41,244 nt of DNA from the NCBI GenBank assembly GCA_017992765.1, contig JAGOOA010000003.1:18003-59246 (forward strand), given 5' to 3'. Under the pieces are notes generated by a model, which did not search any database, was not told where the DNA came from, and saw only the letters and a program-made list of their open reading frames with translations. Numbering within the stretch: the stretch's first letter is position 1; every line of letters begins with the position of its first letter. This stretch comes from Syntrophorhabdaceae bacterium (lineage in GTDB: Bacteria > Desulfobacterota > Syntrophorhabdia > Syntrophorhabdales > Syntrophorhabdaceae). The translations under genes and the position numbers were made by a program. This document shows positions 23,988-41,027 of the stretch, piece by piece.

Positions 23988-24911
23988 TTACGATTGTGGC
24001 CGGGGGTAAAGGCCGGCTGATCTGACGATCTCCGGCACCATCTGCTCCCATTCGATGGCCATGATGTGGATGCCGCTGACCCCTTTGATGCCGCGCACCT
24101 TCTCGATCGTCTCCAGACAGATCCTGATGCCTTCCTCTGCCTGCTTTTCCTTCGGGGTATCCTGCATGCGCCTGATGAGGTCATCGGGCACATCCATGCC
24201 CGGCACGGAGTTTTTCATGTATTTCGCCATGCCGGCGGATTTCATCGGCGTGATCCCCGCGAGGATGTAGACCTTCTCGTGGACGCCGAGGTCTCGCACC
24301 ATCTCCATCCATTTCCCGAATTTATCGACGTTGAAGATGCACTGGGTCTGGACGAACTGTGCGCCGGCCTTTACCTTTTTCGCGAGCCGCATGGCCCTGA
24401 TCTCAAAGGGATCGGCGAAGGGGTTTGCGGCGCACCCCACGAAGAGGGCGGGCTTGCCTTTTATCTCTTCACCGCTTAGAAACCTGCCGTCGTCCGCCAT
24501 CTGCCTGATACACTGTATGAGCTGCATGGAGTCGATATCGAAGACGTTTTTTGCGGTGGGGTGGTCCCCGAACTTCTGGTGGTCGCCGGATAGGCAGAGG
24601 ATGTTGCTGATGCCCAGCGCGGCGGCGCCGAGGACGTCGCTCTGGATGGCGATCCTGTTCCGGTCCCTGCACACCATCTGCATGACAGGATCGAAGCCCA
24701 TCGCCTTCAATATGAGGGAGGCGGAGAGGCTGCTCATCCTCACGACGCTCGTCTGGTTGTCGGTGACGTTCACCGCATCGACATACCCTAACAGGAAACC
24801 TCCTTTTTTCTTTACTGCCTCCGGGTCAGCTCCTCGCGGGGGGCCGCACTCGGAGGTGACGGCAAAGTTGCCGGCCTTCAGTACCCTTTCCAGGCTGCTT
24901 GCAGTGCTCAT
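23988..24911 (-). CDS. metF: Methylenetetrahydrofolate reductase, MetF (copy 1)
   Basis: 307 residues of the MetF barrel. It reduces methylene-THF to methyl-THF in the methyl branch of the Wood-Ljungdahl pathway. Landmarks are TSECGPPRGADP at the N-terminus (catalytic Glu region), VNVTDNQTSVVRMSS, the flavin-binding CRDRNRIAIQSDVLGAA, LCLSGDHQ and QFVQTQCIFNVDKF. It overlaps metV by 4 nt (ATGA). This is the last gene of the 17-kb cluster. In Moorella the metV-metF pair is co-transcribed with hdrCBA-mvhD, the same order as here. Confidence 0.93.
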   Translation of the reverse strand: MSTASSLERVLKAGNFAVTSECGPPRGADPEAVKKKGGFLLGYVDAVNVTDNQTSVVRMSSLSASLILKAMGFDPVMQMVCRDRNRIAIQSDVLGAAALGISNILCLSGDHQKFGDHPTAKNVFDIDSMQLIQCIRQMADDGRFLSGEEIKGKPALFVGCAANPFADPFEIRAMRLAKKVKAGAQFVQTQCIFNVDKFGKWMEMVRDLGVHEKVYILAGITPMKSAGMAKYMKNSVPGMDVPDDLIRRMQDTPKEKQAEEGIRICLETIEKVRGIKGVSGIHIMAIEWEQMVPEIVRSAGLYPRPQS

Positions 24912-25576
24912 ATCTTCAAATCCTCCCTGATCCTCTTGCGCGGGCCGCCGTCCCTGCTTGTCGACCAGTCCTTAGCCGGCTGTATATCGAGGTACCTGTC
25001 AAGCATGCCCATCTCTTTGTAGCGGTCTACGATAAGCTGCCACGCGCAGGGCGTATCCTTGTCCACCTCGCAGACGCCTCCCTGCGAGCCGCCGCAGGGC
25101 CCGTTGAAGATGCTCTTCGCGCAGCGCGTAACGGGGCATATGCCGAGTGTTCTATCGAGGACGCAGTTGCCGCACCCCTGGCAGCGCTCGGCCCACATGC
25201 CGTGCTGCTCAGTGACGCCGTAAAACGTAGTGTTTACGGCGGGCAGGACGATCTTGTTCCGGTAATGCTCACCCACGAACTGTATGCCGCAGCCGCACGC
25301 CATCGAAAGCACAGCGTCAAAGTCATTGATAAAAGGCTTCAAGGCCTCAACGTATTCCGGGTCGCAGTTCCTTTCCAGGGTCACCTCTTTGATCTCTACG
25401 GGCTTGCCTTCCTTTGCCCTGAACAGGCGTATCTCCGACGCGAGCACCGCAACCTCCTTGGCGCCGCCGGCTGCGCAGACGGTAACGCATTCGTTGCAGC
25501 CGAGAAGGAGTATGCTGGAATAGGGCTTCAGCATCTCTATAATCTCTTCAAAAGGCTTTCTGTCAGCGACGATCAT
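24908..25576 (-). CDS. metV: MetV, Zn/Fe-S partner of MetF (copy 1)
   Basis: The frame is open far upstream through repeat DNA, but the start is set at the ATG at 25576, which has AAGGAG 7 nt upstream and begins the conserved MIVADRKPFEEI. The 222-residue protein has an N-terminal GCNECVTVCAAGG, an MACGCG block and a C-terminal cysteine-rich part (ERCQGCGNC, GICPVTRCAKS, FNGPCGGS, GGVCEVDKDTPCAWQL). MetV is the obligate small subunit that docks MetF and passes electrons to it. A 297-nt gap with two 123-bp repeats separates it from mvhD. Confidence 0.92.
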   Translation of the reverse strand: MIVADRKPFEEIIEMLKPYSSILLLGCNECVTVCAAGGAKEVAVLASEIRLFRAKEGKPVEIKEVTLERNCDPEYVEALKPFINDFDAVLSMACGCGIQFVGEHYRNKIVLPAVNTTFYGVTEQHGMWAERCQGCGNCVLDRTLGICPVTRCAKSIFNGPCGGSQGGVCEVDKDTPCAWQLIVDRYKEMGMLDRYLDIQPAKDWSTSRDGGPRKRIREDLKI

Positions 25577-25600
25577 AATAAACTCCTTAATTGAAATCCG

Positions 25601-25723
25601 AAGGACGAAGCACGTCCGCTCACTGCGTTCGCTCGGACGACCGCTTCGCTCGGACGAAGAGGCACTTGCTTTTGCGTCCCTCGTCCTAATGAGTCCCGCA
25701 CTTCGCGGGGCGAATGGTCGTCC
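25601..25723. repeat. 123-bp repeat, copy 1
   Basis: Begins AAGGACGAAGCACGTCC and ends GCGAATGGTCGTCC. It contains CGTCCG...CGGACG and CCCGC-ACTT-GCGGG stem-loops. Identical to copy 2 at 25743 (offset 142 bp), and like copy 3 at 26316 except for two mismatches. It has no coding signs. Confidence 0.92.
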
Positions 25724-25742
25724 CTCATGCCTTAACTCCAGG

Positions 25743-25865
25743 AAGGACGAAGCACGTCCGCTCACTGCGTTCGCTCGGACGACCGCTTCGCTCGGACGAA
25801 GAGGCACTTGCTTTTGCGTCCCTCGTCCTAATGAGTCCCGCACTTCGCGGGGCGAATGGTCGTCC
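25743..25865. repeat. 123-bp repeat, copy 2
   Basis: Second direct copy in the gap between mvhD and metV, separated from copy 1 by 19 nt and ending 9 nt before the mvhD stop. Its GGACGA...TCGTCC ends are inverted, in the manner of a miniature palindromic element. Confidence 0.92.
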
Positions 25866-25873
25866 TTCGTCCC

Positions 25874-26299
25874 TCATTTCTTATCTCCCTGCCGTTTCAC
25901 TGGATTCGGCCCCAGCCCCCGTATCTTCTCCGTCATTTCCTGCGCGATCTGGGCGAACTTCTGCCCCTCTGCCGATGAAAGGTTGTACATGGCAACCCGG
26001 TCTCGGCCGATCCCGCACTCGTCGAGAAGCTGCTTCGCGTATTCGACACGCTTCCGTGCCCTTATGTTTCCCACAAGAAAATGGCAGTCCCCTTCGAGGC
26101 AGCCGACGAGGCAGACGCCGTCGGCGCCGCTCTCAAAGGCCTTCATCACGTGAATGACATCAACCCTGCCTGTGCAGGGGACCTTAACGATCTTTACATT
26201 TGCCGGGTACGAAAGCCTCATCGAACCTGCCAGGTCCGCCGCCGTATACCCTCAGTACTCGCAGCAAAAAGCAATGATCTCCGGCTCAAAACTATTCAC
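25874..26299 (-). CDS. mvhD: Selenocysteine-containing MvhD-like hydrogenase/Hdr iron-sulfur subunit
   Basis: A GTG at 26299 with AAGGAG 5 nt upstream opens a frame that reads VNSFEPEIIAFCCEY, then TGA (26254-26252), then GYTAADLAGS and on into the rest of MvhD. Read as selenocysteine U16, the protein has 141 residues and the expected length and cofactor ligands: C12, C13 and U16 in FCCEYUGY, C42 (VPCTGRVD), C67 and C72 (GCLEGDCHF). MvhD carries a [2Fe-2S] cluster passing electrons to HdrA. A cut at the TGA would remove the N-terminal ligands. The final stop codon is also TGA. It lies between hdrA and metV and is bracketed by 123-bp repeats. Sec-containing MvhD homologues (VhuD type) are known. 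Confidence 0.88.
26223..26254 (-). promoter_or_regulatory. Candidate bacterial SECIS element of mvhD
   Basis: Directly after the in-frame UGA, 20 nt lead to a 6-bp stem GGACCU/AGGUUC closing a GGC loop. A short apical loop starting with G, 16-37 nt from the UGA, is the usual requirement for SelB-dependent insertion. The fold was drawn by eye. Confidence 0.65.
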
Positions 26300-26315
26300 A
26301 GCAACTCCTTGAATG

Positions 26316-26438
26316 AAGGACGATGGACGTCCGCTCACTGCGTTCGCTCGGACGACCGCTTCGCTCGGACGAAGAGGCACTTGCTTTTGCGTCCCTCGTC
26401 CTAATGAGTCCCGCACTTCGCGGGGCGAATGGTCGTCC
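26316..26438. repeat. 123-bp repeat, copy 3
   Basis: Same orientation as copies 1 and 2, with two mismatches near the left end. It fills most of the hdrA-mvhD gap, so mvhD lies between direct repeats. Confidence 0.92.
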
Positions 26439-26452
26439 TTCGTCCTTCGTCA

Positions 26453-29400
26453 TTATTTCACGCACAGCGCCTTCACCTTCTCCTCGAGCTGTATATCCCT
26501 GTAGTGCATAAGGTCGATCGCCTTTGCAGGGCATTCGGCTGCACAGGTGCCGCAGCCCTTGCATTTGCTGATGTCGATCTCCGCCTCGCCCCGCTCATTG
26601 ATAACGGGCACTGAATAGGGGCATACCCGGACGCAGGTGAGGCATGCTGCGCATTTCTCTCCCTCGACGCAGGCGACGACGCCGCCGACAGCCATCTTCT
26701 CTTTTGAGAGTATTGTCATCGCCCTCGCCGCCGCGCCTTCAGCCTGAACGATCGTCTCCTTCATATTTTTCGGCGAATGGGCGATGCCGCAGAGAAATAT
26801 GCCGTCAGAGGCGAAATCCACTGGCTTAAGCTTCATGTGGGCTTCGAGGAAGAACCCTTCGTTGGTTCTCGGCAGCTTAAGGAGCGTCGCGAGATCGTTG
26901 TTGTCCGGCGGTACGATGGCGCTGCTCAACACAATGAGGTCAGCGTCGAAGGATATGTTCTCCATAACGGACGGGTCATGGCAGGCCAGGGTGGGGTTGC
27001 TTCCTTTCAGGTCCAGAACCGGCTGCGCCGACATCTCATACCGTATGAACCTCACGCCGAGCCTCCTCGCCTCCAGATAATACCTTTCCAGGAAGCCGTA
27101 GGTGCGGATATCCCGGTAGAGGACCACCACATCGCACTCCGGGGCGAGATCCTTCAGCGCTATGGCGTTCTTTATGGCAGTAGAACAGCAGACCCTGCTG
27201 CAGTAAGGCCGCTCTTCGTTCCTTGACCCGACACACTGTATCATGGCGCATCGCTTAAAGGGGCCAAGCGTGCCGGCAGCGATCTTTCCCTCAAGCTCAT
27301 GCTGCGTCATGACCCTTTTATCTTCGCCGTAGCCGAAATGGCCGTGAGGCTTCAGCTCCTTGCCGCCTGTGGCAATGATGATGACCCCGTGCTCTATCTT
27401 CTTGTGTTCTTTCGATGCGCCAGCTGCGATGCCCGTTGAAAAATTTCCCTTAAAGCCGCCGTGGTCGACGACGGCGGCATTTATCTCCACGTGGATGAGC
27501 GGGTGGCCCGTTACCTTTTCTATTGTTTCTTTCAGGAATCCCTGCACATCGATGCCATCGAGGGTGCGGTGAATGTGGCGAAGGTTTCCGCCAAGCGCCT
27601 CTTCCTTTTCTATCAGGAAGACCTCGAAGCCCTGGTCGGCAAGCTTGAGGGCCGCCGTCATACCGCCGATGCCGCCGCCGACAACGAGCGCCTTTCTGTT
27701 GACATCTATGGTGGCCTCTCTCAGCGGCTTTATATGGTTGGCGTTCATGACCGCCATTCTTACGAGGGCCTTTGCCTTTTCCGTCGCGTCCTCTTTATCG
27801 TGCATATGGACCCATGAGCACTGGTCCCTGATATTCGCCATCTCGAAGAGATATTTATTCAACCCCTTCTCGCGAATGGTCGCCCTGAAGAGGGGCTCGT
27901 GCGTCCTGGGAGAGCAGGAGGCGACGACGACCCTGTTTATCCTGTGCTCCTCAAGGAGCTTCTTCATCTTGTCCTGGGTATCCTGGGAACAGGTAAAGAG
28001 GTTGTCGTCGGAAAGGACGACATTGGGAAGCCCTTTTGAATATTCCTTCACCTCGGGGACATTTACCACGCCGCCGATATTGACGCCGCAATTGCAGACA
28101 AAAACGCCTATCCGCGGCTCCTCGGCGTCGACGTCTCGTTCGTCAGGGAGCTTTTGGACGACGAGGTCTTTTCCCCGCGCCCCGGTGATGAGCGATGCCG
28201 CCTCGCATGCCGCGCCGCAGGCGGCCGTCACGGTCTCGGGGATATCCTGGGGGGATTCGCAGGCGCCGCATGCGTAGATCCCCTCGCGCGAGGTGAGGAG
28301 GGGATTTTCTGCCCCTCCCTTGATAAAGCCGTATCCGTTGAGCTCTATGCCCAGCGTCGTTGCAAGCTTTGCGAGGTTTTTTGATGGCCTTAAGCCCACA
28401 GAGAGAACGATCATGTCGAATGTTTCTTCCCGCAGCTCGCCGCCGTCGTCAACGTATACGACGGACACGTCTTGCGTCGCGGGGTTCTCAAGGATCCTCG
28501 ATACCATCGATTTTATATACCTGACGCCATACTCGCCTTTTGCCCGCTCAAAGTACTGATCGAAGCCTTTTCCGTACGCACGTATATCCATGTAAAAGAT
28601 CGTCGCCTCGACGTCGTTCTGGTGCTCCTTCGCAATGACCGCCTCTTTGGTCGCGTACATGCAGCATACGGACGAGCAGTATTCGTTCACCTTGTCCCTG
28701 CTCCCTACACACTGGATGAAGCCGATCTTTTTCGGTATCTTCCCGTCGGAGGGCCTCATGACAACGCTCCCCGTGGGGCCCGTCGCAGAGAGGATGCGCT
28801 CGAATTCGACGCTGGTGACCACGTTCGGGTAGACCCCGTAGCCGAATTCCTTTTTCCCGTGGGCGTCGTATTCATCAAAACCGCTTGCCACGATGATGCT
28901 GCCTACCTCCAACCTTTCTTCGACGGGCCCTTCGCTGTAATCAATGGCCTCGGGTTTGCAGAACTCCTCGCATATCCTGCACCCCAGGCACCTTCGGCAG
29001 CTTAAACACCTCTTCGCCTCTTCCATGGCCTCTTTTTCGTTGAGCGCCAGGTAGACCTCATGGAAGCCTTTTCTTTCTTCGACCGGTATCGATGGTATGG
29101 CAACGCGCGCCTTCTTTGCTATACCGCCGGGAACATCCTCAACGAGCGCATCCTCGCGGGCCAGCCTTCCTTCCCTCAGGTCTCTTCCCTCAAGATAGCG
29201 CCTGATCGACTCGGCCGCCTCGTTGCCCTGGGCTATCGCGTCGATCGCCATCTTCGGCCCTGTCGCGGCGTCTCCGCCCGCAAAGATGCCTTCAGCAGAC
29301 GTCTGGAGGGTGACGGGGTCTGCCTTGATCCTGCCGTCAGGGTATCGCTCAATGCCCTGGATGCCTGCAAGGAAGTCCGTATCGACAGCCTGCCCGATGG

Positions 29401-30859
29401 CAAGGATGACCGTGTCGGCCTTGAAGCGCTTTGTCGTCGAGTCCTCGTAGCAAGGGTTGAAGCGCCCGCTCTCGTCAAACACGGAGAGGCACCGCTTGCA
29501 GTCGATGCCCGCCGCGCAGCCTTCGTCGGACAGCATGATCTCTTTCGGCCCCCAGGACGTATGGATCGTAATCCCTTCTTCGAGGGCCTGCCTGATCTCC
29601 CATTGATGGGCCGGCATCTCGTCCCAGCGCTCGAGGCACGCCATGTGCACATCGCCGGCGCCGCATCGTTTTGCCGTGAGCGCCACATCGATGGCGACGT
29701 TGCCGCCCCCGATGACAAGGACGGTGCTGCCCAGCTCCACCGGTTCATTTTTGTTGACCTTCCGCAAAAATTCTATCCCGTTTATGACGCCGCCGGCCCT
29801 TTCGTTCGCGATGCCGAGGCCCCTGCTGCCGTGTGCGCCGGGGCTTACGAAGAGGGCGTCATAATCGCTGCGGATCTCGTTGATCGATACGTCTTTCCCG
29901 ACGGCCGTGTTGTACCGTACCGTGATGCCCATCTTTTCCACAATGGCGACTTCCCTCGCCAGCACGTCCTTTGGCAGGCGGTATGCGGGGATACCGAGAT
30001 AGAGCATGCCGCCGAGCCTGTCGTGGGCCTCGAAGACCGTGACGCCGTACCCTGCCTTTCTCAGCTCTATGGCGCATGCGAGTCCTGCTGGCCCTCCCCC
30101 TATGACCGCTATCTTTTCCTTCCGCGCTTCGGCGATCTCCGGGACAGGGGCTTCTCTTCTCCCGGCCTCGTAGTCGGCAACGAACCTTTTCAGGGCGCAT
30201 ATAGCGACGGGCTGGTCCACTTTTCTGCCCCGAAGGCACTCGTCCTCGCAGGGGTGGCTGCATATGCGGCCGATGACGCCGGGGAAGGGGAGCCTTTCCC
30301 TGATGAGGTCAAGGGCGTCGAAAAACCTGCCCTCGGCGATGAGCCCCACGTAGTCGCGCACGTTGAGGTTGACGGGGCAGCGGTCAACGCACGGCGCTAT
30401 CTCCCTGTCTATCATATATGTCGATGGGATCGCCTGGGGAAAATTGAGGTATGCCGCGCTCCGCTGCGACATTCCCATGTTGTAGCCGCTTCCTACCTCA
30501 AGGGGGCAGCTGGGGGCGCAGAGCGCGCAGGACGTGCATTTATCGGGCAGCACCCTGCGGGGCCTCCGCTTCAGCGTGACAGTGAAGTTGCCCGGCACGC
30601 CGTCGAGGGCCGCGACATCGGAGTTCATGAGGAGCTCGATGTTCGGGTTCCTTCCCACCTCCACGAGCTTCGGCGCCATGATGCACATGGAGCAGTCGTT
30701 GGTGGGGAACGTCTTGTCGAGCTGCGACATATTGCCGCCGATGTTCGGCTTCTCGTCGACGAGGTACACCCTGTAGCCCGCCTCGACAAGATTGAGCGAC
30801 GCCTCCATCCCTGCGATGCCGCCGCCGATCACGAGAACCTTTCCAACCTTTTCTGTCAT
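26453..30859 (-). CDS. hdrA: Giant HdrA with inserted GltD-like module
   Basis: 1468 residues. Domain order: HdrA-type FAD start (GGGIAG 12-17); a 4-Cys cluster C108-C118; a GltD-like insert (~150-570) with an N-terminal C157/C161 ferredoxin-like part, FAD site GGGPAG (254-259), NAD(P) site GGGNVA (384-389) and an AGGDAATGP tail; cysteine-rich C618-C634; the second part of the first HdrA with QCVGSRD and CSSVCC (~717-733); then a complete second HdrA (~916-1468) with CNCGVN, GGGIGG (1061-1066), CVGSRN, and two C-terminal [4Fe-4S] motifs (C1403-C1413, C1433-C1443). HdrA flavoproteins bifurcate electrons in the cytoplasm. The GltD part should bring NAD(P)H into the complex. It follows a small winged-helix gene across a repeat-filled gap. 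Confidence 0.93.
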   Translation of the reverse strand: MTEKVGKVLVIGGGIAGMEASLNLVEAGYRVYLVDEKPNIGGNMSQLDKTFPTNDCSMCIMAPKLVEVGRNPNIELLMNSDVAALDGVPGNFTVTLKRRPRRVLPDKCTSCALCAPSCPLEVGSGYNMGMSQRSAAYLNFPQAIPSTYMIDREIAPCVDRCPVNLNVRDYVGLIAEGRFFDALDLIRERLPFPGVIGRICSHPCEDECLRGRKVDQPVAICALKRFVADYEAGRREAPVPEIAEARKEKIAVIGGGPAGLACAIELRKAGYGVTVFEAHDRLGGMLYLGIPAYRLPKDVLAREVAIVEKMGITVRYNTAVGKDVSINEIRSDYDALFVSPGAHGSRGLGIANERAGGVINGIEFLRKVNKNEPVELGSTVLVIGGGNVAIDVALTAKRCGAGDVHMACLERWDEMPAHQWEIRQALEEGITIHTSWGPKEIMLSDEGCAAGIDCKRCLSVFDESGRFNPCYEDSTTKRFKADTVILAIGQAVDTDFLAGIQGIERYPDGRIKADPVTLQTSAEGIFAGGDAATGPKMAIDAIAQGNEAAESIRRYLEGRDLREGRLAREDALVEDVPGGIAKKARVAIPSIPVEERKGFHEVYLALNEKEAMEEAKRCLSCRRCLGCRICEEFCKPEAIDYSEGPVEERLEVGSIIVASGFDEYDAHGKKEFGYGVYPNVVTSVEFERILSATGPTGSVVMRPSDGKIPKKIGFIQCVGSRDKVNEYCSSVCCMYATKEAVIAKEHQNDVEATIFYMDIRAYGKGFDQYFERAKGEYGVRYIKSMVSRILENPATQDVSVVYVDDGGELREETFDMIVLSVGLRPSKNLAKLATTLGIELNGYGFIKGGAENPLLTSREGIYACGACESPQDIPETVTAACGAACEAASLITGARGKDLVVQKLPDERDVDAEEPRIGVFVCNCGVNIGGVVNVPEVKEYSKGLPNVVLSDDNLFTCSQDTQDKMKKLLEEHRINRVVVASCSPRTHEPLFRATIREKGLNKYLFEMANIRDQCSWVHMHDKEDATEKAKALVRMAVMNANHIKPLREATIDVNRKALVVGGGIGGMTAALKLADQGFEVFLIEKEEALGGNLRHIHRTLDGIDVQGFLKETIEKVTGHPLIHVEINAAVVDHGGFKGNFSTGIAAGASKEHKKIEHGVIIIATGGKELKPHGHFGYGEDKRVMTQHELEGKIAAGTLGPFKRCAMIQCVGSRNEERPYCSRVCCSTAIKNAIALKDLAPECDVVVLYRDIRTYGFLERYYLEARRLGVRFIRYEMSAQPVLDLKGSNPTLACHDPSVMENISFDADLIVLSSAIVPPDNNDLATLLKLPRTNEGFFLEAHMKLKPVDFASDGIFLCGIAHSPKNMKETIVQAEGAAARAMTILSKEKMAVGGVVACVEGEKCAACLTCVRVCPYSVPVINERGEAEIDISKCKGCGTCAAECPAKAIDLMHYRDIQLEEKVKALCVK

Positions 30860-31409: not shown

Positions 31410-31440
31410 ATTATCCCTGATACATAATTTGGAGTGTCAA
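31410..31440 (-). promoter_or_regulatory. Candidate internal promoter before the winged-helix gene
   Basis: TTGACA (31440-31435) and GATAAT (31415-31410) on the minus strand. The 19-nt spacer is longer than ideal. Only 5 nt lie between the -10 and the ATG, predicting a leaderless message. Confidence 0.4.
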
Positions 31441-31494
31441 TGCCGGGCTTTCCGCAAGCAAACCATCGAGGCGAGGAAGCTCGGTCGTATAATC

Positions 31495-31728
31495 CCCCCT
31501 CTCCCTGACCCTCTCCCGCCAGGGGAGAGGGAATGTTTGTGCTATGACCCTTTTCCGTAAAGAGAGAGGGAATGTTTGTGCTATGACCCTTTTCCGTAAA
31601 GAGAGAGGGAATGTTTTTGCTATGACCCTTTTCCGTAAAGAGAGAGGGAATGTTTTTGCTATGACCCTTTTCCGTAAAGAGAGAGGGAATATTGTTACCC
31701 CGAAGCGCTGCTTCAGGGGATCTATTGA
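31495..31728. repeat. 39-bp tandem array (four units) with flanking palindrome
   Basis: The 396-nt gap between hdrB and the winged-helix gene has no gene. A CCTGACCCTCTCCCGCC lead is followed by four 39-bp units starting at 31531, 31570, 31609 and 31648. Each runs GAATGTTTxTGCTATGACCC and then TTTTCCGTAAAGAGAGAGG. A palindrome (CCCCGAAGC/GCTTCAGGGG) closes the array. Confidence 0.9.
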
Positions 31729-31800
31729 TGGAGCGTGTTTGCGGGGAAAGCCCGGCATCGACACTCATCCTTATAGAAGATCCGGTTTTTTCCATTTTCA

Positions 31801-32673
31801 TTATTCGAGGGCGTTGCATTTCCTTTTCACCTTCTTCACAATTTCGTCAACCGGAATGATATGCGAGCTTGTCCCTTTCAATGCGCCGAAGAACGCGAGC
31901 TCAAGGAGCTCTGTGAGAAAGAGCACGGGCACGCTCCTGCCCTCTCTCCCAAGATAGGGCAGGAGGTCAAGGTTCAACTGGCACAAGGGGCAGGGGGTCA
32001 CAATGGCGTCTGCGCCTAAGGAAACGGCCATATCCATGATCTTTGACGACAGCTTGAGCGTCATATCCTTGTTGGTGAGGGTCTTGCTCGCGCCGCAGCA
32101 TTCCATCTTGTACGGCCAGCTTACGAGCTCCGCGCCCGCTGACCAGATGAGGCTGTCCATGCTTGCCGGGTCCTCTTTGTCGTCGAAGGCGTCCATCTTC
32201 ATGAGGCGCGTAAGGACGCATCCATAATAGGGGACGACCCTGATCGAAGAGAGGTCATAGGCGATACGTTGCGCGATCATTTCGATGCCCGCATGGTCGT
32301 GCAGCACCTCGATGATATTCTTCACCTCAACGGCGCCGGTGCATTGAAGGGGATAGAGCGCTTTGTTGATCTCCTCCCTCAGTTCCTTGTTTTCCCCGAT
32401 CCGGGCGTTTGTTATCAACGAGCGGTTGTAGCAGGCGGAGCAGGGGGCGAAGAGGTGGCGTCCTTCGCGTTCGGCGAGCGCAAGGTTCCTTGCGGCCAGA
32501 GCATAGCCGAGCAGCTCATCGATCGTGTGCGCAGCCGAGGCGCCGCAGCACGACCAGTCCCCAAGCTCCTTGAATTCGATCCCGAAGAAAGAAAAAATGG
32601 CCTTGAACGATTCCTCGTAGAACCGGCTTGAGGTCTTCAAGGAACACCCGGGATAATAGGTCAACGTCACCAA
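31801..32673 (-). CDS. hdrB: HdrB-like subunit, CCG-domain protein
   Basis: 290 residues with two CCG cysteine motifs. Repeat 1 has C10, C42-C43 (SCCGA), C78 and C81. Repeat 2 has C152, C192-C193 (ECCGA), C228 and C231. In HdrB these bind two non-cubane [4Fe-4S] clusters at the disulfide or equivalent electron-acceptor site. The start is a TTG at 32673 (or the adjacent GTG) behind AGGAGAGG. In Moorella-type complexes HdrB lies between HdrA and HdrC; here a winged-helix gene separates it from hdrA. Confidence 0.93.
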   Translation of the reverse strand: MVTLTYYPGCSLKTSSRFYEESFKAIFSFFGIEFKELGDWSCCGASAAHTIDELLGYALAARNLALAEREGRHLFAPCSACYNRSLITNARIGENKELREEINKALYPLQCTGAVEVKNIIEVLHDHAGIEMIAQRIAYDLSSIRVVPYYGCVLTRLMKMDAFDDKEDPASMDSLIWSAGAELVSWPYKMECCGASKTLTNKDMTLKLSSKIMDMAVSLGADAIVTPCPLCQLNLDLLPYLGREGRSVPVLFLTELLELAFFGALKGTSSHIIPVDEIVKKVKRKCNALE

Positions 32674-32780: not shown

Positions 32781-33320
32781 TCACCCTCTCACCTTCTTAT
32801 CATCTATCTTTTTGAAGATCCCCTTCATTCCATTCCTGTCCTTGATATTGTGCGGAAGCAGCCCCATCCGGCCTTTTTTCAGCATCCCCATGCCCATCAC
32901 CGTATCACCGAAGAGGTCTTTTTTGCCGATCTTGTACCGGAGGATAGCCTCCAGCTCGTTCAGCCTGCCGTGCCTCTGAACGCTTTCGAGGAAGATCTCG
33001 TCAAAGCGCCACACGTCCTTCTCTGCCATCTTCCCTTCCCATGCAGAGATCTTCCTGAGGGCGTCAAAGACGCGGGCAACGTCTATGTCGTTGGGGCACC
33101 GTACGCTGCAGGTCGTGCACTGGAGGCAGGTCCAGATCATTTTCGACCCGAGCGCCCTGTCCCTGTCGCCAAGGATGATATGGCGTATGATCCTGTGGGG
33201 ATAGATGTCCATGTCGGCGGCGACGGGGCAGCCGGCGGTGCACCTGTAGCACTGGTAACATGCAGAGATATTTTCGCCTGTAGCCTTCTCCACTTCACGG
33301 AGAAAACCAAGATCATTCAT
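32781..33320 (-). CDS. hdrC: HdrC-like [4Fe-4S] subunit
   Basis: 179 residues with two four-cysteine motifs, C21-x2-C24-x2-C27-x3-C31 and C65-x2-C68-x2-C71-x3-C75, and a helical C-terminus, as in HdrC. It relays electrons between HdrA and HdrB. The ATG has GAGGG upstream. It starts 15 nt after the amidotransferase-like gene, which suggests that the glutamate-synthase-like and Hdr genes share a transcript. Confidence 0.93.
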   Translation of the reverse strand: MNDLGFLREVEKATGENISACYQCYRCTAGCPVAADMDIYPHRIIRHIILGDRDRALGSKMIWTCLQCTTCSVRCPNDIDVARVFDALRKISAWEGKMAEKDVWRFDEIFLESVQRHGRLNELEAILRYKIGKKDLFGDTVMGMGMLKKGRMGLLPHNIKDRNGMKGIFKKIDDKKVRG

Positions 33321-33335
33321 AAAGCCCTCGGGACA

Positions 33336-36038
33336 TTATATCTTAGTATAATGTGCGTCGTGATGAAATAAAATATCGGGCATCCCTTCGACCTTTTTTC
33401 CTGTCACCCACTCTTCATTCATGGCCAGAGCGCTGCTCGCGAGTACCGAAAGCCTTACGGCCCCGATGGTGCGATAGACCTCCCCTGGCTTCCGGCGTTT
33501 TCCGTCAACGGTGAGGAGGTGCCTGTTGATGGAGATGCCGAAAAGCCGCTCGTTCTCTTTTAGGTAAGGGAGGATAAGCTCCCAATCGCGTTCGTCGAAG
33601 GGCAATATCTGCCCGCCGTTCAACTGCTCAGGAACGATCTTTTTGTACGGGTCCCTGATGAATATGGCCCCGCCCGACGCGAGCGAGAAGAGGTTCGACC
33701 CCGGGTAGGGGGTATCCTGCGGGATGACGCGTCCGCTGCCATCAAATGCCATGCCGTTCACGATCACGAAGCCTCCCCCGTTATAGGGATCTCCCGCCAT
33801 GAAGGATTCGGCGAGGAAATCAAGCGCCGTGCCGTTTATGATGACCCGCGGCCTCCCCACGGCGTTGATAAGCGGCCTCCCGGCGGCATTGCCGAGGACA
33901 TAGACCTCGCCGCCTTTTGCCCCGTACATGAACGTTTGCCCCACGTCGCCGTAAACGACGAGCTTTCCCCGCTTCAGGATCTGCCCGAGCTGGTCCTGCG
34001 CATTGCCGTGGACGTATATCTCGAGGCCGTCGATCCCCGACGCGAGGTAGTCCCCCGTTGAGTCGTATGCATCGATGCGCACGCCGTCTGTTTCAGGCCC
34101 GAAACCGCAGCCGAGGAAGCGCTGGCCGCGGTGGCCGAAACAGATAAACCTTTTCCAGCCCAGCCTGTAAGCCTCGGAGATGAGCTGCGCGTAGGAGTCA
34201 TCCCCTTCCGGCGGAAACCCGGCGGCATCGGCGACGAGGACCTCTTCCCCGGAAAGGGGCGGACGGAGGCCCTGTCTTTTTTCAAAGTTTATCCGTCCAT
34301 GGCGGCCGGCAGGCGCATCGCCCAGGAGGGGGACGGCGTTGAACATTGAACGCAGCGTTTCCGTTGCCATCTGCAAGATCGAGCGGCGCCTCTTTTTCCC
34401 TGTAGGGTAATGCCGGTCAAGGAAGAGCGTAAGGAGCCGGATCGCATTGTCCTTCAGTGCATCGTCCTTCGCGAGATCCCTGAGCTTTGCAAAGACCGAA
34501 CCCGTGAGGCTGTAATCCCATCCGGCCAGTCCTTTTGCAAGGGCAGTAAAGAGCCCTTCAACATCTCCTGCTCCAAGTTTTTTTCTTAAACCCGCCTGGA
34601 AGGCCCTTTCGAGCCTTATAGGGGGAAGCTTCTTTGTGAGGTCGCAGGGCCTTTGATCTCGGGGAACATCGATCTGCCTGCCGAACTTGTCGCTGCAGGT
34701 GAGGGTTTTTTGTCCGTTGCCCGATCCGCTGACCGTGAAGATGAAGGCGCCGCCGTCGGTGTAGCTGCCGCCGCGGGCATTCCAGTAATGGTCGGCAACG
34801 GTTCCGAAGCGGGGATCCTCCCTGGAGAGGCTCTCAAGGGTCGCATCGATTGCCTGTTTTTCGGAGCAGATCAGGCCTATCTCAACGCCGCCCTTCTGGA
34901 TCGCGAAGACCTGCGGCCTCAGCATGGCCGTGTCGGTAATGCCGATAAGCTGGTACTGCCTTTTCTTTACATCCGTGCGGGCGATGATGAAAAACCACGG
35001 CCCGTCGGGCGATCCATGGATGTGCGCCGCCTGGATCTGCCTGTAGACGCGCTGCTTCTCCTCCGGCAGATGGTCGAAGTCCATCTCCGCCGTCGGCGCC
35101 AGCGCCTCGATGATGTACTCGAGGGGATATCCGTAGACCCTGTTCAGAAGGTCGAAGATCTGCACAGATACCTCCGTGTCGGTAAGGAAAAGAGGGTAGA
35201 TATTTCTCTGTTTCAGGTATTCCGTGACAGAGTAGTAGTTTGCGAAATCTCCGTTGTGCACGAGGGCCTCGTCGAGCCCGATGAAGGGGTGGGCGCCTCC
35301 GGGATGCCACACGCGTCCCTTGGTCGGGTAGCGCTGGTGGGCGATCCATATATGGGCATCGAAGTTGTCGAGCTTATAATACTGCGCAACCTGCTCGGCA
35401 TAGCCGACGATCTTGAGTATCATCATGTCCCGGCCGTGTGAAAGGACAAAGGCCCTTTTCTCGCCGAGGGAGCTGTAAAGGGCGAGGTTGAGCCGGTAGG
35501 TATTCTGGTAGATGAATTCCTCTTCGGCCTTGTCTTCAGGGAGCATCGAGAGGTTCCTTCCTTCCCGGAAGCGGGCGAGGGCATCCGGTTTGACGCGGAC
35601 AAAATAGCGCTTCACTGCCGGCGGCTTTACCTCGAGGCCGGGAATGTCCCTGTAGTCATCGATGGTATCGACGAATGCCTCATGGTCGACCCTGAAATGC
35701 GGGTGGATGAACCGCTCTTCCATCTCGGGCGCCACGGCCTCGTCGAGGAGGGCGACCTGGAGAAGAAAATCCTCATCGAGCGTCTTTTGATCGACGCCCA
35801 GCTTTGCCGGCGTGAGGCCGACGGCGGCAAGCCCGCCCCCCTTGCCGTTGCCGCGGTTGTGCATCTGAACCGACGGCTCGAAGATATGCCGTCCGCTCAC
35901 GGGGATGTTGCAGGCAAAGCCCGTGACTCCGCAGCCTCCTTCTTCGGCGTCCACGCGCGGGCGGCCCATGTTCTTCGCCCCATCCCGGAGATGGCTGCGG
36001 GAATCGATGATATGCTGTGCGTAATTCTTATTTTTCAT
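33336..36038 (-). CDS. GltB-like class-II amidotransferase plus GXGXG domain protein
   Basis: 900 residues. The glutamine amidotransferase domain (~36-430) begins at C36 in EEGGCGVTGFA; a 35-residue N-terminal extension would be removed to expose the catalytic cysteine, as in GltB. AHQRYPTKGRVWHPGGAHPF and VHNGDFANYY are the glutamine-site signatures. The C-terminal part (~665-815) is the GXGXG beta-helix of glutamate synthase (GNAQDQLG, YGDVGQTFMYGAKGG, MAGDPYNGGG). The FMN/[3Fe-4S] domain that normally lies between them is missing here and is encoded by the two upstream genes. The 39-bp array and heptamers precede it. Confidence 0.88.
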   Translation of the reverse strand: MKNKNYAQHIIDSRSHLRDGAKNMGRPRVDAEEGGCGVTGFACNIPVSGRHIFEPSVQMHNRGNGKGGGLAAVGLTPAKLGVDQKTLDEDFLLQVALLDEAVAPEMEERFIHPHFRVDHEAFVDTIDDYRDIPGLEVKPPAVKRYFVRVKPDALARFREGRNLSMLPEDKAEEEFIYQNTYRLNLALYSSLGEKRAFVLSHGRDMMILKIVGYAEQVAQYYKLDNFDAHIWIAHQRYPTKGRVWHPGGAHPFIGLDEALVHNGDFANYYSVTEYLKQRNIYPLFLTDTEVSVQIFDLLNRVYGYPLEYIIEALAPTAEMDFDHLPEEKQRVYRQIQAAHIHGSPDGPWFFIIARTDVKKRQYQLIGITDTAMLRPQVFAIQKGGVEIGLICSEKQAIDATLESLSREDPRFGTVADHYWNARGGSYTDGGAFIFTVSGSGNGQKTLTCSDKFGRQIDVPRDQRPCDLTKKLPPIRLERAFQAGLRKKLGAGDVEGLFTALAKGLAGWDYSLTGSVFAKLRDLAKDDALKDNAIRLLTLFLDRHYPTGKKRRRSILQMATETLRSMFNAVPLLGDAPAGRHGRINFEKRQGLRPPLSGEEVLVADAAGFPPEGDDSYAQLISEAYRLGWKRFICFGHRGQRFLGCGFGPETDGVRIDAYDSTGDYLASGIDGLEIYVHGNAQDQLGQILKRGKLVVYGDVGQTFMYGAKGGEVYVLGNAAGRPLINAVGRPRVIINGTALDFLAESFMAGDPYNGGGFVIVNGMAFDGSGRVIPQDTPYPGSNLFSLASGGAIFIRDPYKKIVPEQLNGGQILPFDERDWELILPYLKENERLFGISINRHLLTVDGKRRKPGEVYRTIGAVRLSVLASSALAMNEEWVTGKKVEGMPDILFHHDAHYTKI

Positions 36039-36080
36039 GGTGCGTTATACCTTTGCTCCTTTTCATTGAGCTTGTTGTAT

Positions 36081-36300
36081 CCCTTCATCCCCCCTCACCC
36101 TGACCCTCTCCCGCCAGGGGAGAGGGAATGGTGTTGCTGTGACCCTTTCCCTCAAAGGGAGAGGGAATGGTGTTGCTGTGACCCTTTCCCTCAAAGGGAG
36201 AGGGAATGGTGTTGCTGTGACCCTTTCCCTCAAAGGGAGAGGGAATGGTGTTGCTGTGACCCTTTCCCTCAAGGGGAGAGGGAATGGTGTTGCTGTGACC
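36081..36300. repeat. 39-bp tandem array (four units plus partial)
   Basis: Part of a 484-nt gene-free gap. Units start at 36126, 36165, 36204, 36243 and (partial) 36282. Each runs GAATGGTGTTGCTGTGACCC and then TTTCCCTCAAAGGGAGAGG. Period and plan match 31531-31686, but the unit sequence differs. Confidence 0.92.
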
Positions 36301-36329
36301 GATTTATCATGAACCATGAGCGATCTCCT

Positions 36330-36507
36330 TCTCCTTACGCCTTACGATATCTTTAATACGGTCGTACGTCATGAGTCGTAAGTCGTAATGGGTTAAATCG
36401 CCTGACGCCTTACGCCTTACGGCCTTTATCGGCTTTAATACGGTCGTAAGTCGTGAGTCGTAAGTGGTTAAATCGCCTGATGCCTTACGCCTTACGGCCT
36501 TTATCGG
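36330..36507. repeat. Duplicated heptamer module (CTTACGC / GTCGTAA type)
   Basis: Two ~75-80-bp copies (36351-36432 and 36433-36507). Each has TTTAATACG, then GTCGTAA/GTCGTGA-like units, then TTAAATCGCCTGA, then CTTACGC/CTTACGG units and GCCTTTATCGG. A higher-order repeat made from heptamers. Confidence 0.8.
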
Positions 36508-36522
36508 GTTTAGGGTCTTCAT

Positions 36523-38040
36523 TCAGTCCAGCTCTCCTTCTACCTCTTCCTGCTTTATGTAGTCCAAATGTGCAATGACGTCGAAGCGCCCCACGAGCTC
36601 CGTGACGCTTTTCATGCCGAGACGCCCGAGGATGCTGACAAGCTGGGCGCGCCACGCGCTGTACATATTGATGATGCGCTGGGTGCCCCACTCAAGCTCC
36701 ATAAGGCCGGTAAGCTCCTCGTCGGTAGTGGCGATGCCGCGGGCGCAGCCCCGGCCTGACTCACAGTGGTGGCAGCGGATGCATTCGAGCGCTACGAGGT
36801 CCGCTGTTCCGAGGCAGACACCATCGGCCCCCATGGCAATGATCTTTGCCATATCGTATGCAGACCTGATGCCGCCGCTCGCGATAATAGTGATCTTGTC
36901 CCTTATCCCTTCGGCGAGGAGGAACTTATGGACCTTGGGCAGCGCGTACTCGATAGGCATGGCGATGTTCTTCTTCGCAATATCGGGCGCGGCGCCGGTT
37001 CCGCCGTAGCTGCCGTCGAGCTGGACGATGTGCGCACCTGCGTAAAAGCTTCCGACGACGACCATATCGACGTCGGTCGGCGTGGACACCTTGACGGACA
37101 CGAGGGCCTTTTTGTTGATCTCCTTGATCCAGTCCACGTGCTTCTTGTGGTCTTCGACGGAGTAGACGCTATGGAAAGGGAATGGGGAAAAGAGCGCGCT
37201 TCCCGCCACTGCCTCGCGCATCTGCGCCACGCGGGGAGTTACCTTGTCGCCGAGAAGGTGCCCGCCTAGCCCCGGTTTCGCGCCCTGCGCGTATTTGAAC
37301 TCAACAATGCGGACGCGCTTGATCGTCTCTTCCCGCACGCCGAAAAGGCCCGTCGCGACCTGGGTGATGATATGGTCGTCGTAGTCCATCAGCTCTTCGG
37401 GATAGCCGCCTTCCCCGGTGCAGCAAAAGGTTCCCAGCGCCGCTGCGGCCCGAACGCGGGAGAGCATGGTCACGATGCTCACGGAGCCGAAGGACATGCC
37501 GCCGAGGTAGAGCGGCACAGGGATGGCCACCTTTGGGCGGGAGTCGCCGGAGCGGTTCAATTCAATGGCGGTGGAGATGCTATCATCTGTGCCGGGACTG
37601 CCGTTCCAGTTCTTCTTGGGGAGGATAAACCGTATCTTGTCAAAGCCGCCGCCGGAGCTGCCTGTCTTGTAATCCAGGTCCTGGTGTGGGACGGCCCCTG
37701 TCTCCGCCATGTGCCACGTGCCGGCGAGGAGCTCCGCGGGCCAGCGCCTGTCGCCCAGCACTTCGAACGAAGGGTTCTGCCGGATATGGATCGCCTTTTC
37801 GGGACAACGGCCCATGCAATAGAAATCGTTTTTTGAACAGGAAGGGCCGAGGCAGAGATGTTCGTCCGACGGCTTCGGCCGTTTTGAGCCGGCGTGGTAT
37901 ACGCCATAGGGACAAAGCTCTACGCACAATCCGCAATTGGTGCACGCCCTGGTTATTGTGATGCGGTATTTGCCGAGGGCGTTGCGGAAGCGGCTCGGGG
38001 CCCTTCTGATCTCAGGAAATTGGAAATGATCTGTTGCCAT
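36523..38040 (-). CDS. Glutamate synthase FMN-domain protein with N-terminal ferredoxin domain
   Basis: 505 residues, resembling the archaeal-type GltB2. An N-terminal 2[4Fe-4S] ferredoxin part has C33/C36/C39/C43 and C63/C68/C75/C79. The FMN barrel has GEGG (209-212), KPGLGG (255-260), DGSYGGTGAAP (342-352) and ASGGIRS (387-393), and a C-terminal cluster C420-x2-C423-x2-C426-x5-C432. All signatures needed to bind FMN and form glutamate from 2-oxoglutarate and ammonia are intact. It starts 3 nt after the upstream paralogue. The amidotransferase partner is the next gene downstream. Confidence 0.9.
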   Translation of the reverse strand: MATDHFQFPEIRRAPSRFRNALGKYRITITRACTNCGLCVELCPYGVYHAGSKRPKPSDEHLCLGPSCSKNDFYCMGRCPEKAIHIRQNPSFEVLGDRRWPAELLAGTWHMAETGAVPHQDLDYKTGSSGGGFDKIRFILPKKNWNGSPGTDDSISTAIELNRSGDSRPKVAIPVPLYLGGMSFGSVSIVTMLSRVRAAAALGTFCCTGEGGYPEELMDYDDHIITQVATGLFGVREETIKRVRIVEFKYAQGAKPGLGGHLLGDKVTPRVAQMREAVAGSALFSPFPFHSVYSVEDHKKHVDWIKEINKKALVSVKVSTPTDVDMVVVGSFYAGAHIVQLDGSYGGTGAAPDIAKKNIAMPIEYALPKVHKFLLAEGIRDKITIIASGGIRSAYDMAKIIAMGADGVCLGTADLVALECIRCHHCESGRGCARGIATTDEELTGLMELEWGTQRIINMYSAWRAQLVSILGRLGMKSVTELVGRFDVIAHLDYIKQEEVEGELD

Positions 38041-38043
38041 CGC

Positions 38044-39426
38044 TTAACCTCTCTTGCCCATTGCCGCGAAGGTCTCCCGCTCGAGCTCCTCGAAGAACAT
38101 GGCTCTCCCCATCTCGCCGCGGAGGCGCCTTGCCTCGCGGATGCCCATGGCACCGAGTATTTCGAGGAGCTGGCTGTGCCACGCGGCCATCAGGTTCGCA
38201 ATGCGGAGCGAGCCCCACACGGGGTCCACGCCATCAAGCTCAACGGGGCATGCGATCCCCTCTTTGCACCGCCTGCATACCCTGCATTCCATCGCCACGA
38301 GGAGCGGTATATCGATCGAAAGCGCATCGGCGCCGCAGATGATGAGCTTCGCCATGTGCTCCGCCATGGCGATGCCTCCGCCGCCGATGATCGTAACCTG
38401 GTCCCTTACGCCTTTGTCCACGAGGTGAAGGTGGACCTCTTTCACCCGTTCTTTGATGAACAGCGGTTCGCTGCCTTCTTCAAGGCCATACTCGTCAGCG
38501 ACGAGGTGGAGGACCTCGGCGCCCTGCTCAATGAGCGCAAGCGCGCGCTCCTGGATGTTTGGGCCGAGCCGCAGCCTTATCATGACGACGAGTTCGGGAT
38601 TTATTGACTTGAGCCTCTCCTGCAGCGCTGTGGCGTCTTGCCCGTCGGGGATCTCGATGATCCGCGCGGAAGAGAGCAACTCTTTCCTCAGTCTATCGGG
38701 GTTCCCGTCGACATAGATGATCGCGTGGGGGAGGAATTCCCTTGTTGCGGGGTTGATGCCCGACTGCCTGACGACGGCAAAGGTGCCGAGCGCCCTCGCA
38801 CCGTAGAGGAATGCGAGCGGGATATTGTCTCCCGGTGGAGACCAGGGCAGCATATCGAAGATGACCGGCAAGGGTATCTCAACGAGGGGCGGCGCCTGGG
38901 AGACGATCTCGCCGCCGGGGCCGAACTCGATGGACATGGCCTTGCGGCCGATGTCGACGGTGGTGCTTATATATTCGCGCCCGTGGATCCCGTCCCTTGT
39001 GGGCCGGACGATCTCGGACATATCCGTCCACATGGCGTCGAAGCCCGGGCCGGAGAAGGGCCCCCCGTAGCCTGCGCCTGAAACTGGTATGCGGCCGCTC
39101 TCCGCCTGAAACCATAGCCCCGATATGATCTCCGGGGTCCAGTAGTGGTCGCCCAGCGCCTTGTAGGAAGGGTTAAGGCCTTTATGGATGAGCCTGTTGG
39201 GGCAGTTCTGGACGCAGCGGAAGCAGTCCATGCAGGTGCTGTCCAGTGAATCGAGCATCTGGCGGTCATCGAGGCCCCGCTTTTCGTACACCTGGTAGAC
39301 GCAGTCTTTTTTTACGCAGCGGGCGCACTTCAGGCACCCTTCTTCCCAGGCGATGATGCCCGAGCGGGTTATCTTCTGATACCGGTTCGGCGCCTGAGAT
39401 GTTTCAATGTGATATTTAAGCGGCAT
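38044..39426 (-). CDS. Degenerate paralogue of the glutamate synthase FMN protein
   Basis: The ATG at 39426 has AAGGGAG 7 nt upstream and starts 4 nt after the metF stop; the frame is open further but overlaps metF. The product has 460 residues. Ferredoxin-like cysteines C31/C34/C37/C42 and C65/C68/C71/C75 are kept, as is a C-terminal C381-x2-C384-x2-C387-x5-C393 with the same spacing as in the neighbour. The FMN and substrate motifs are lost: no GEGG, no KPGLGG, and DEYGLEEGSEP where DGxxGGTGAAP is expected. IIGGGGIAMAEHMAKLIICGADAL still aligns with the end of the barrel. It is probably a non-catalytic Fe-S partner of the intact protein. Confidence 0.82.
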   Translation of the reverse strand: MPLKYHIETSQAPNRYQKITRSGIIAWEEGCLKCARCVKKDCVYQVYEKRGLDDRQMLDSLDSTCMDCFRCVQNCPNRLIHKGLNPSYKALGDHYWTPEIISGLWFQAESGRIPVSGAGYGGPFSGPGFDAMWTDMSEIVRPTRDGIHGREYISTTVDIGRKAMSIEFGPGGEIVSQAPPLVEIPLPVIFDMLPWSPPGDNIPLAFLYGARALGTFAVVRQSGINPATREFLPHAIIYVDGNPDRLRKELLSSARIIEIPDGQDATALQERLKSINPELVVMIRLRLGPNIQERALALIEQGAEVLHLVADEYGLEEGSEPLFIKERVKEVHLHLVDKGVRDQVTIIGGGGIAMAEHMAKLIICGADALSIDIPLLVAMECRVCRRCKEGIACPVELDGVDPVWGSLRIANLMAAWHSQLLEILGAMGIREARRLRGEMGRAMFFEELERETFAAMGKRG

Positions 39427-39430
39427 TATG

Positions 39431-40363
39431 CTACTCCCTTGAGGTCTCTGGCCTGGGATAAAGCCCGGCCTCTTCCACGATCTGGGGAACGACATCTTCC
39501 CATTCGATGGCCATGATGTGGACGCCGTGAACCCCTTCCATGTATTTCAGCGCCATAATGGTTTCGACGGCTATCGCGATGCCTTCCCGGCGCTGGTCCT
39601 TTGGGTCAACGCCCTTCATCCGGCTTATGATAGTGTCAGGCACGTCCATCCCGGCTACCTGCCTGCTCATATATTCAGCCATACGAGCCGATTTCAGCGG
39701 TGTCACGCCGCCAAGGATGTACACCTTCTTGTCGAGGCCCCTGTCGCGGGCCTGCCTTATCCATTCCGCGAAGCGCTTCAGGTTATAGATGCACTGGGTC
39801 TGGATGAACTCGGCTCCTGCAGCGGCCTTTTTGCCAAGCCGGACGACCCGGTAGTCGAAGGGATCGGCAAAGGGGTTTGCCACGGCGCCGATAAAAAGCC
39901 GCGGCGGCTCTGAAAGTTTCTCTCCGCCGATGATCAGGCCCTCATCCCTCATCCTGCGCACGGCCTGGATAAACTGTATGGAATCGATATCGAATACGCC
40001 CTTTGCCTGTGGCTGATTCCCAAAGGATTGATGGTCTCCCGAAAGGCAGAGGATGTTCCTGATGCCGAGCGATGATGCCCCGAGAACATCCGACTGGAGG
40101 GCTATGCGGTTCCGGTCGCGGGTTACCATCTGGAGGACAGGGTCAAGCCCTTCCTGCTTGAGAATGGCGCAGGCGGCCATGCTGCTTAAGCGGACCACCC
40201 CGGTCTGGTTGTCCGTCACGTTGACGCTGTCCACGTAGCCCTTCAGAATATCACCTTTTTTTTGTATGACCACGGGATCAGCCCCTTTTGGAGGGCCGCA
40301 TTCGGCAGTAACGGCAAAATTGTGTTGCGTCAGGACATTTTTCAGGTTGCTCTCAGCTTTCAC
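39431..40363 (-). CDS. metF: Methylenetetrahydrofolate reductase, MetF (copy 2)
   Basis: 310 residues from a GTG at 40363 with GGGAGG upstream. It is a clear paralogue of the copy at 23988-24911: AECGPPKGADPVV, VNVTDNQTGVVRLSS, TRDRNRIALQSDVLGAS, LCLSGDHQ and EFIQTQCIYNLKRF align without gaps, with many conservative differences elsewhere, so it is not a recent duplicate. It overlaps metV copy 2 by 11 nt. Being first in the cluster and next to the glutamate-synthase-like genes, it may feed a second version of the complex. Confidence 0.93.
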   Translation of the reverse strand: MKAESNLKNVLTQHNFAVTAECGPPKGADPVVIQKKGDILKGYVDSVNVTDNQTGVVRLSSMAACAILKQEGLDPVLQMVTRDRNRIALQSDVLGASSLGIRNILCLSGDHQSFGNQPQAKGVFDIDSIQFIQAVRRMRDEGLIIGGEKLSEPPRLFIGAVANPFADPFDYRVVRLGKKAAAGAEFIQTQCIYNLKRFAEWIRQARDRGLDKKVYILGGVTPLKSARMAEYMSRQVAGMDVPDTIISRMKGVDPKDQRREGIAIAVETIMALKYMEGVHGVHIMAIEWEDVVPQIVEEAGLYPRPETSRE

Positions 40364-41027
40364 TTCTCTGGTCCTCCCTTACTATTTTCCTGGGCCCCTT
40401 CCCCTGCTGCTTTGACCAGTCCGCAGGGGGGTAGATCGCCTCCAGGAGGTCGCTGCGGCCTTCGCTGTCAAGGCGCTCGACGATAAGCTGCCACGCGCAG
40501 GGGGAGTCGGGGTCGACCTCGCAGGCGCCGTTCTTCGAGCCGCCGCAGGGCCCGTTGAAAAGGCCTTTTGCGCAGCGCGTGACAGGGCAGACACCGGCGA
40601 AATAACCAAGCTTGCAGTCGCCGCAGGCGCGGCAGTTCTCCACCCACAGGCCGGACTCTTTCGTCTCGCCGATGAAGGTTGTGTTCAGGGCAGGGACGAC
40701 CGGGGTCTTCGGGAATACCTCTGCCACGGCCTGGACGCCTGCTCCGCAGCCGAGGGAAAGGATGACCTCGTATCTGTCCGCGATCCCGGTGAGCTGGTCG
40801 ATAAATTCGTAGACGCACTGGCGGTCTATGGTCATCTCATGTGCCTCGATCGTACGCCCCTCCATCTGCGCGTCCATGCGAAGCGCCGACGCGAGGAGCC
40901 CGACCTCCTTTTCTCCTCCGGAGGCGCATTCGGCAACGCAGGTCCCGCATCCCACCACGAGGACCTTCCTGTAAGGCGCAAGCATTGCCCTGATCTCGGC
41001 CAGGGGCTTTCTTTCTGCAGTTATCAT
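40353..41027 (-). CDS. metV: MetV, Zn/Fe-S partner of MetF (copy 2)
   Basis: 224 residues; ATG at 41027 with AAGGAG 7 nt upstream. It has the same cysteine layout as copy 1: GCGTCVAECASGG, SLGCGAG, ENCRACGDC, GVCPVTRCAKG, FNGPCGGS and GACEVDPDSPCAWQL. One difference is visible: the internal CGCG of copy 1 is GCGAG here. It is the first gene of the cluster, with the 77-bp tandem array just upstream. Confidence 0.92.
   Translation of the reverse strand: MITAERKPLAEIRAMLAPYRKVLVVGCGTCVAECASGGEKEVGLLASALRMDAQMEGRTIEAHEMTIDRQCVYEFIDQLTGIADRYEVILSLGCGAGVQAVAEVFPKTPVVPALNTTFIGETKESGLWVENCRACGDCKLGYFAGVCPVTRCAKGLFNGPCGGSKNGACEVDPDSPCAWQLIVERLDSEGRSDLLEAIYPPADWSKQQGKGPRKIVREDQRSES

Follow-up and report, generated by a model that had tools for sequence, protein, structure and literature searches.

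Does the TGA triplet that lies within the mvhD gene of this Syntrophorhabdaceae genome stop translation, or is it a codon for selenocysteine (Sec)? According to the original prediction, made from the letters of the window (the whole stretch of 41,244 nucleotides analyzed here), a frame that starts at a GTG with a good ribosome-binding site passes through this one TGA directly into the rest of MvhD, the TGA would replace a putative cluster-ligand cysteine in FCC-x2-U-G-Y, and, UGA being also the natural stop of the same gene, recoding would have to depend on context. The relevant elements of the locus are as follows.

25874..26299, minus strand: mvhD, predicted selenoprotein MvhD/FlpD of 141 residues with Sec16 (from the frame, Pfam and the loci of relatives)
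26252..26254, minus strand: in-frame TGA, putative Sec codon of the C-x2-U motif (from TGA in the closest loci, TGC or TGT in Cys homologues and X in 9sfi_K)
26305..26310, minus strand: AAGGAG, ribosome-binding site, 5 nt upstream of the start codon (from the sequence)
26222..26238, minus strand: SECIS-like hairpin with CGGACCU/AGGUUCG stem and GGC loop (from folding, synonymous constraint and a consensus fold of 38 sequences)

Reading frame and protein product

The minus-strand frame is open from the GTG at 26299 to the TGA at 25874 save for one TGA at 26254-26252, and AAGGAG at 26310-26305 is found 5 nt upstream of the GTG; the start, the ribosome site and the natural stop, a TGA at 25876-25874, are all as the original prediction had them. 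With the internal UGA read as Sec at residue 16, the product is 141 residues long and begins with VNSFEPEIIAFCCEYU-GYTAADLAGSMRL (in fuller spelling, VNSFEPEIIAFCCEYU-GYTAADLAG); the segment around Sec is IIAFCCEY-Sec-GYTAADLAGSMR. In Pfam searches, the FlpD domain (PF02662) spans the TGA, as residues 8-130 match positions 1-123 of the 123-position profile with E 7.9e-51. The UGA takes the second place in the CxxC/CxxU motif, where homologues have Cys. The nearest solved chains, through which the fold is known, are MvhD/VhuD proteins. One of them, PDB 9sfi_K, has a non-standard residue X aligned to the Sec column, which we infer to be Sec, and another X in a later motif, G-X-K.

The gene is flanked by three copies of a 134-nt repeat that are 97-98% identical, one before mvhD (26315-26448) and two after it (25742-25875 and 25600-25733), and the natural TGA stop sits at the edge of one copy. 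A whole-genome search found no further full copy of this repeat, and none was detected in the related loci searched, UBA6106 among them.

Conservation of the TGA codon among relatives

The host genome is a MAG, and its nearest relatives with names are recorded as Deltaproteobacteria bacterium UBA6106 and as Syntrophorhabdus sp. Protein matches to MvhD were found in 59 of 60 related genomes. When the 30 closest loci were compared, with the window's own among them, 29 proved to have the identical TGA at the identical codon, one of which has an additional TGA near its end, and the remaining locus has TGC; in distant copies and paralogues, the Sec column is mostly TGC or TGT. The column is thus Sec or Cys in the relatives, which bears out the proposal that the TGA replaces a cysteine.

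The exceptional TGC locus (L037, which seems to be one gene with L100) is from Syntrophorhabdus sp. PtaU1.Bin058. In addition to TGC at the Sec codon, it has an altered hairpin base (GCA to GCC), and the genome G006 keeps selA and selB despite TGC at the Sec codon of L037/L100; a recent Sec-to-Cys change in this organism is possible. A different arrangement is seen in a set of paralogues or distant relatives (L066-L069, L071-L073), which have Cys at the CxxC motif and TGA at a later position of GG-U-HxGDCH type; this later TGA matches the second X of 9sfi_K.

Translation might also begin at the ATG at 26221, 3' of the TGA, which would give a 115-residue protein lacking CxxU, and this ORF is indeed open and was listed mechanically. 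We consider such a start very improbable, as the codons 5' of the TGA encode a segment that is conserved in all relatives, most changes between the close ones being synonymous, and the FlpD match begins upstream of the TGA. In particular, the 13 codons preceding the TGA have accumulated 3-7 synonymous versus 1 non-synonymous changes in four same-genus copies, as expected if they are translated. Homologues likewise start upstream of the TGA with an FCCxxU/C motif, and not downstream of it.

A hairpin frozen at synonymous sites

The GGC-loop hairpin placed by the original prediction 20 nt downstream of the TGA was found at 26238-26222 of the minus strand, as CGGACCU-GGC-AGGUUCG with a 7-bp stem; the loop (26231-26229) begins after 20 nt from the UGA. 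A bacterial SECIS is a hairpin directly 3' of the UGA that has a G in its small apical loop (PMC1088965), and the mvhD hairpin fits this description. Folding energy does not set it apart from shuffled sequence (z -0.47 and +0.31), and for this reason conservation was used as the evidence for SECIS; covariation is uninformative on the stem, the pairs of which hardly vary.

Conservation is informative at the level of codons. The six hairpin codons GCG GAC CTG GCA GGT TCG are used in, respectively, 37, 38, 37, 36, 37 and 33 of 38 TGA copies, and the same six positions are filled by varied codons in 26 Cys copies. In the 38 TGA copies, the mean modal-codon fraction is 0.965 for these six codons vs 0.552 for 42 other conserved codons, the highest of which reaches 0.771 (Mann-Whitney P 4.5e-5, a nominal value since the sequences are related). 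Relatedness does not explain this contrast, which is within the gene, and it holds when the set is reduced to 12 sequences that mostly represent different families. All of the TGA copies read on named contigs from a separate collection (L098, L099, L101, L103, L106, L109, L110, L122, L133, L137) have GCGGACCTGGCAGGTTC. The hairpin core has a mean energy of -6.8 kcal/mol in Sec copies vs -3.2 in Cys copies. The synonymous constraint, seen only in the copies with TGA, is decisive for the hairpin and is the strongest new evidence for reading this codon as Sec. With the kept TGA and the conserved codons before it, the pattern goes far beyond chance.

The idea that a sequencing error, or mutation in a pseudogene, has turned a Cys codon (TGC or TGT) into the TGA draws on the presence of Cys in homologues and of TGC in one same-genus genome, but is scarcely credible and was already refuted by the conservation of the TGA, as the same TGA recurs in dozens of genomes that were assembled independently and come from different families of the phylum, and the synonymous sites of the hairpin are frozen only where it is present.

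Selenocysteine machinery

The host assembly (2.42 Mb in 71 contigs, 95% complete) was searched for the genes of Sec insertion. A tRNA-Sec (selC) with anticodon UCA, located at a contig edge, selB, and two selD genes all score over the cut-off, and each selD has its own in-frame TGA within GAG-U-ASK. Of the four genes that the original prediction proposed to look for, only selA was not found in the host assembly; 55 of 60 relatives have it, among them 5 of 6 same-genus genomes. In the closest relative, sel genes are on separate contigs, and the 13.4 kb around its selA match the host genome only at dispersed repeats. Since the neighborhood of selA is itself absent, an assembly gap is likely, and it most likely took in the selA region. 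True absence of selA was considered and judged unlikely, given that the genome retains selC, selB and two selD genes of Sec type, that 55 of the 60 relatives have selA, and that its whole neighborhood is missing. Apart from this gap, the machinery is present.

Decoding of the UGA by non-Sec means, such as insertion of Trp or plain read-through, for which the lack of selA in the assembly might speak, is extremely improbable: mvhD uses UGA as its own stop, homologues have Cys and not Trp at the aligned position, and tRNA-Sec, selB and selD are present, with selD itself containing a Sec-type UGA.

The gene almost certainly encodes a Sec-containing MvhD, with insertion at residue 16 directed by SelB and the hairpin; the protein most likely serves as a [2Fe-2S] electron connector to HdrA in an Hdr-MetVF system. 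SelB with Sec-tRNA-Sec (UCA) would recognize the hairpin immediately 3' of the UGA, and Sec would be placed in the C-x2-U motif, at a position that is Cys in homologues. The final UGA of mvhD would terminate translation, as the conserved hairpin does not follow there, and in this form the predicted dependence of recoding on context would hold.

Gene neighborhood and probable function

Read along the minus strand, the genes come as metV-metF, glutamate-synthase-like genes, hdrC, hdrB, a gene for a small HTH protein, hdrA, mvhD, metV, metF. Those closest to mvhD are listed below; the start of metV was placed at MIVADRK by homology, and the listed ORF extends upstream into the repeats.

32781..33320, minus strand: hdrC, 4Fe-4S dicluster
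31801..32673, minus strand: hdrB, CCG cysteine-rich domains
26453..30859, minus strand: hdrA, 1468 aa, extra NAD(P)-binding module, upstream partner gene of mvhD
24908..25576, minus strand: metV, MTHFR C-terminal-type protein, DUF5981
23988..24911, minus strand: metF, methylenetetrahydrofolate reductase

The order hdrA-mvhD-metV-metF is retained in nearly all close relatives, and no hydrogenase genes were recognized among the neighbors examined. MvhD/ElpC is known to have a [2Fe-2S] cluster, which in MvhD homologues passes electrons towards the flavin of HdrA (PMC12350162). Because of the gene order hdrC-hdrB-hdrA-mvhD-metV-metF, MvhD probably serves an Hdr-linked methylenetetrahydrofolate reductase, and not a hydrogenase; it would carry a [2Fe-2S] cluster and act there as the electron connector to HdrA.

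Directly upstream of hdrC, the region 33336-41027 contains a further metV-metF pair together with three glutamate-synthase-like genes, which suggests a larger redox cluster. Between hdrA and hdrB, at 31411-31764, there is a mechanically listed ORF made of a short-repeat array encoding NIPSLFTEKGHS-like repeats, probably an intergenic repeat.

Implications

Gene prediction in which every UGA counts as a stop would cut mvhD short, with loss of the N-terminal CxxU, and the annotation of such MAGs therefore needs correction. The locus also suggests selenium dependence of the Hdr-linked methylenetetrahydrofolate reductase in these syntrophs. With moderate confidence, we lean towards the broader view that one large branch of syntrophic deltaproteobacteria has Sec-MvhD as the standard electron connector of this enzyme, which would make the corresponding step of the Wood-Ljungdahl pathway selenium-dependent, and that the SECIS is held there as one almost invariant 18-nt sequence, not only as a structure. 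The TGA and Cys copies form a clean set for the study of constrained SECIS bases.

Comparison with known systems

Sec-containing MvhD/VhuD with CxxU figures among the listed families of selenoproteins (PMC13188914), turned up in genome surveys dating from 2005 (PMC1242214) and is already known in methanogens and sulfate reducers; as a selenoprotein, the mvhD product is an ordinary further example. It belongs to the same family (PF02662) and has Sec at the same C-x2-U position. Archaeal SECIS elements are located in the 3' UTR. The mvhD gene has a single Sec codon, followed directly by a hairpin of bacterial type, in contrast to vhuD of Methanococcus maripaludis, which has two TGA codons (PMC9622424).

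Among bacteria, Sec MvhD has been reported in Desulfococcus multivorans (mvhD, dmul_C28840/50) and Desulfobacterium autotrophicum HRM2 (mvhD1, 2, 3 and 5) (PMC5109826, PMC2702500). By their description, these genes adjoin hdr genes, as mvhD does here; the organism is different, and mvhD is here in an operon with metV-metF.

The gene layout matches that of the HdrCBA-MvhD-MetVF methylenetetrahydrofolate reductase known from Moorella thermoacetica and from Sporomusa ovata, for which pull-downs show interaction of MvhD with HdrA, HdrB and MetF (PMC9430772). The accessible text on the acetogen complex does not mention Sec in MvhD, and a literature search of partial coverage returned no publication obviously on Sec in the MvhD of a MetVF complex. 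The gene set hdrC, hdrB, hdrA, mvhD, metV, metF is the same in the acetogens and here, and HdrA is large in both (1468 aa here, 162.8 kDa in M. thermoacetica; PMC9430772). Compared with the acetogen complex as described there, the Syntrophorhabdaceae system is distinguished by a predicted Sec in MvhD and by the glutamate-synthase-like genes and second metV-metF pair upstream.
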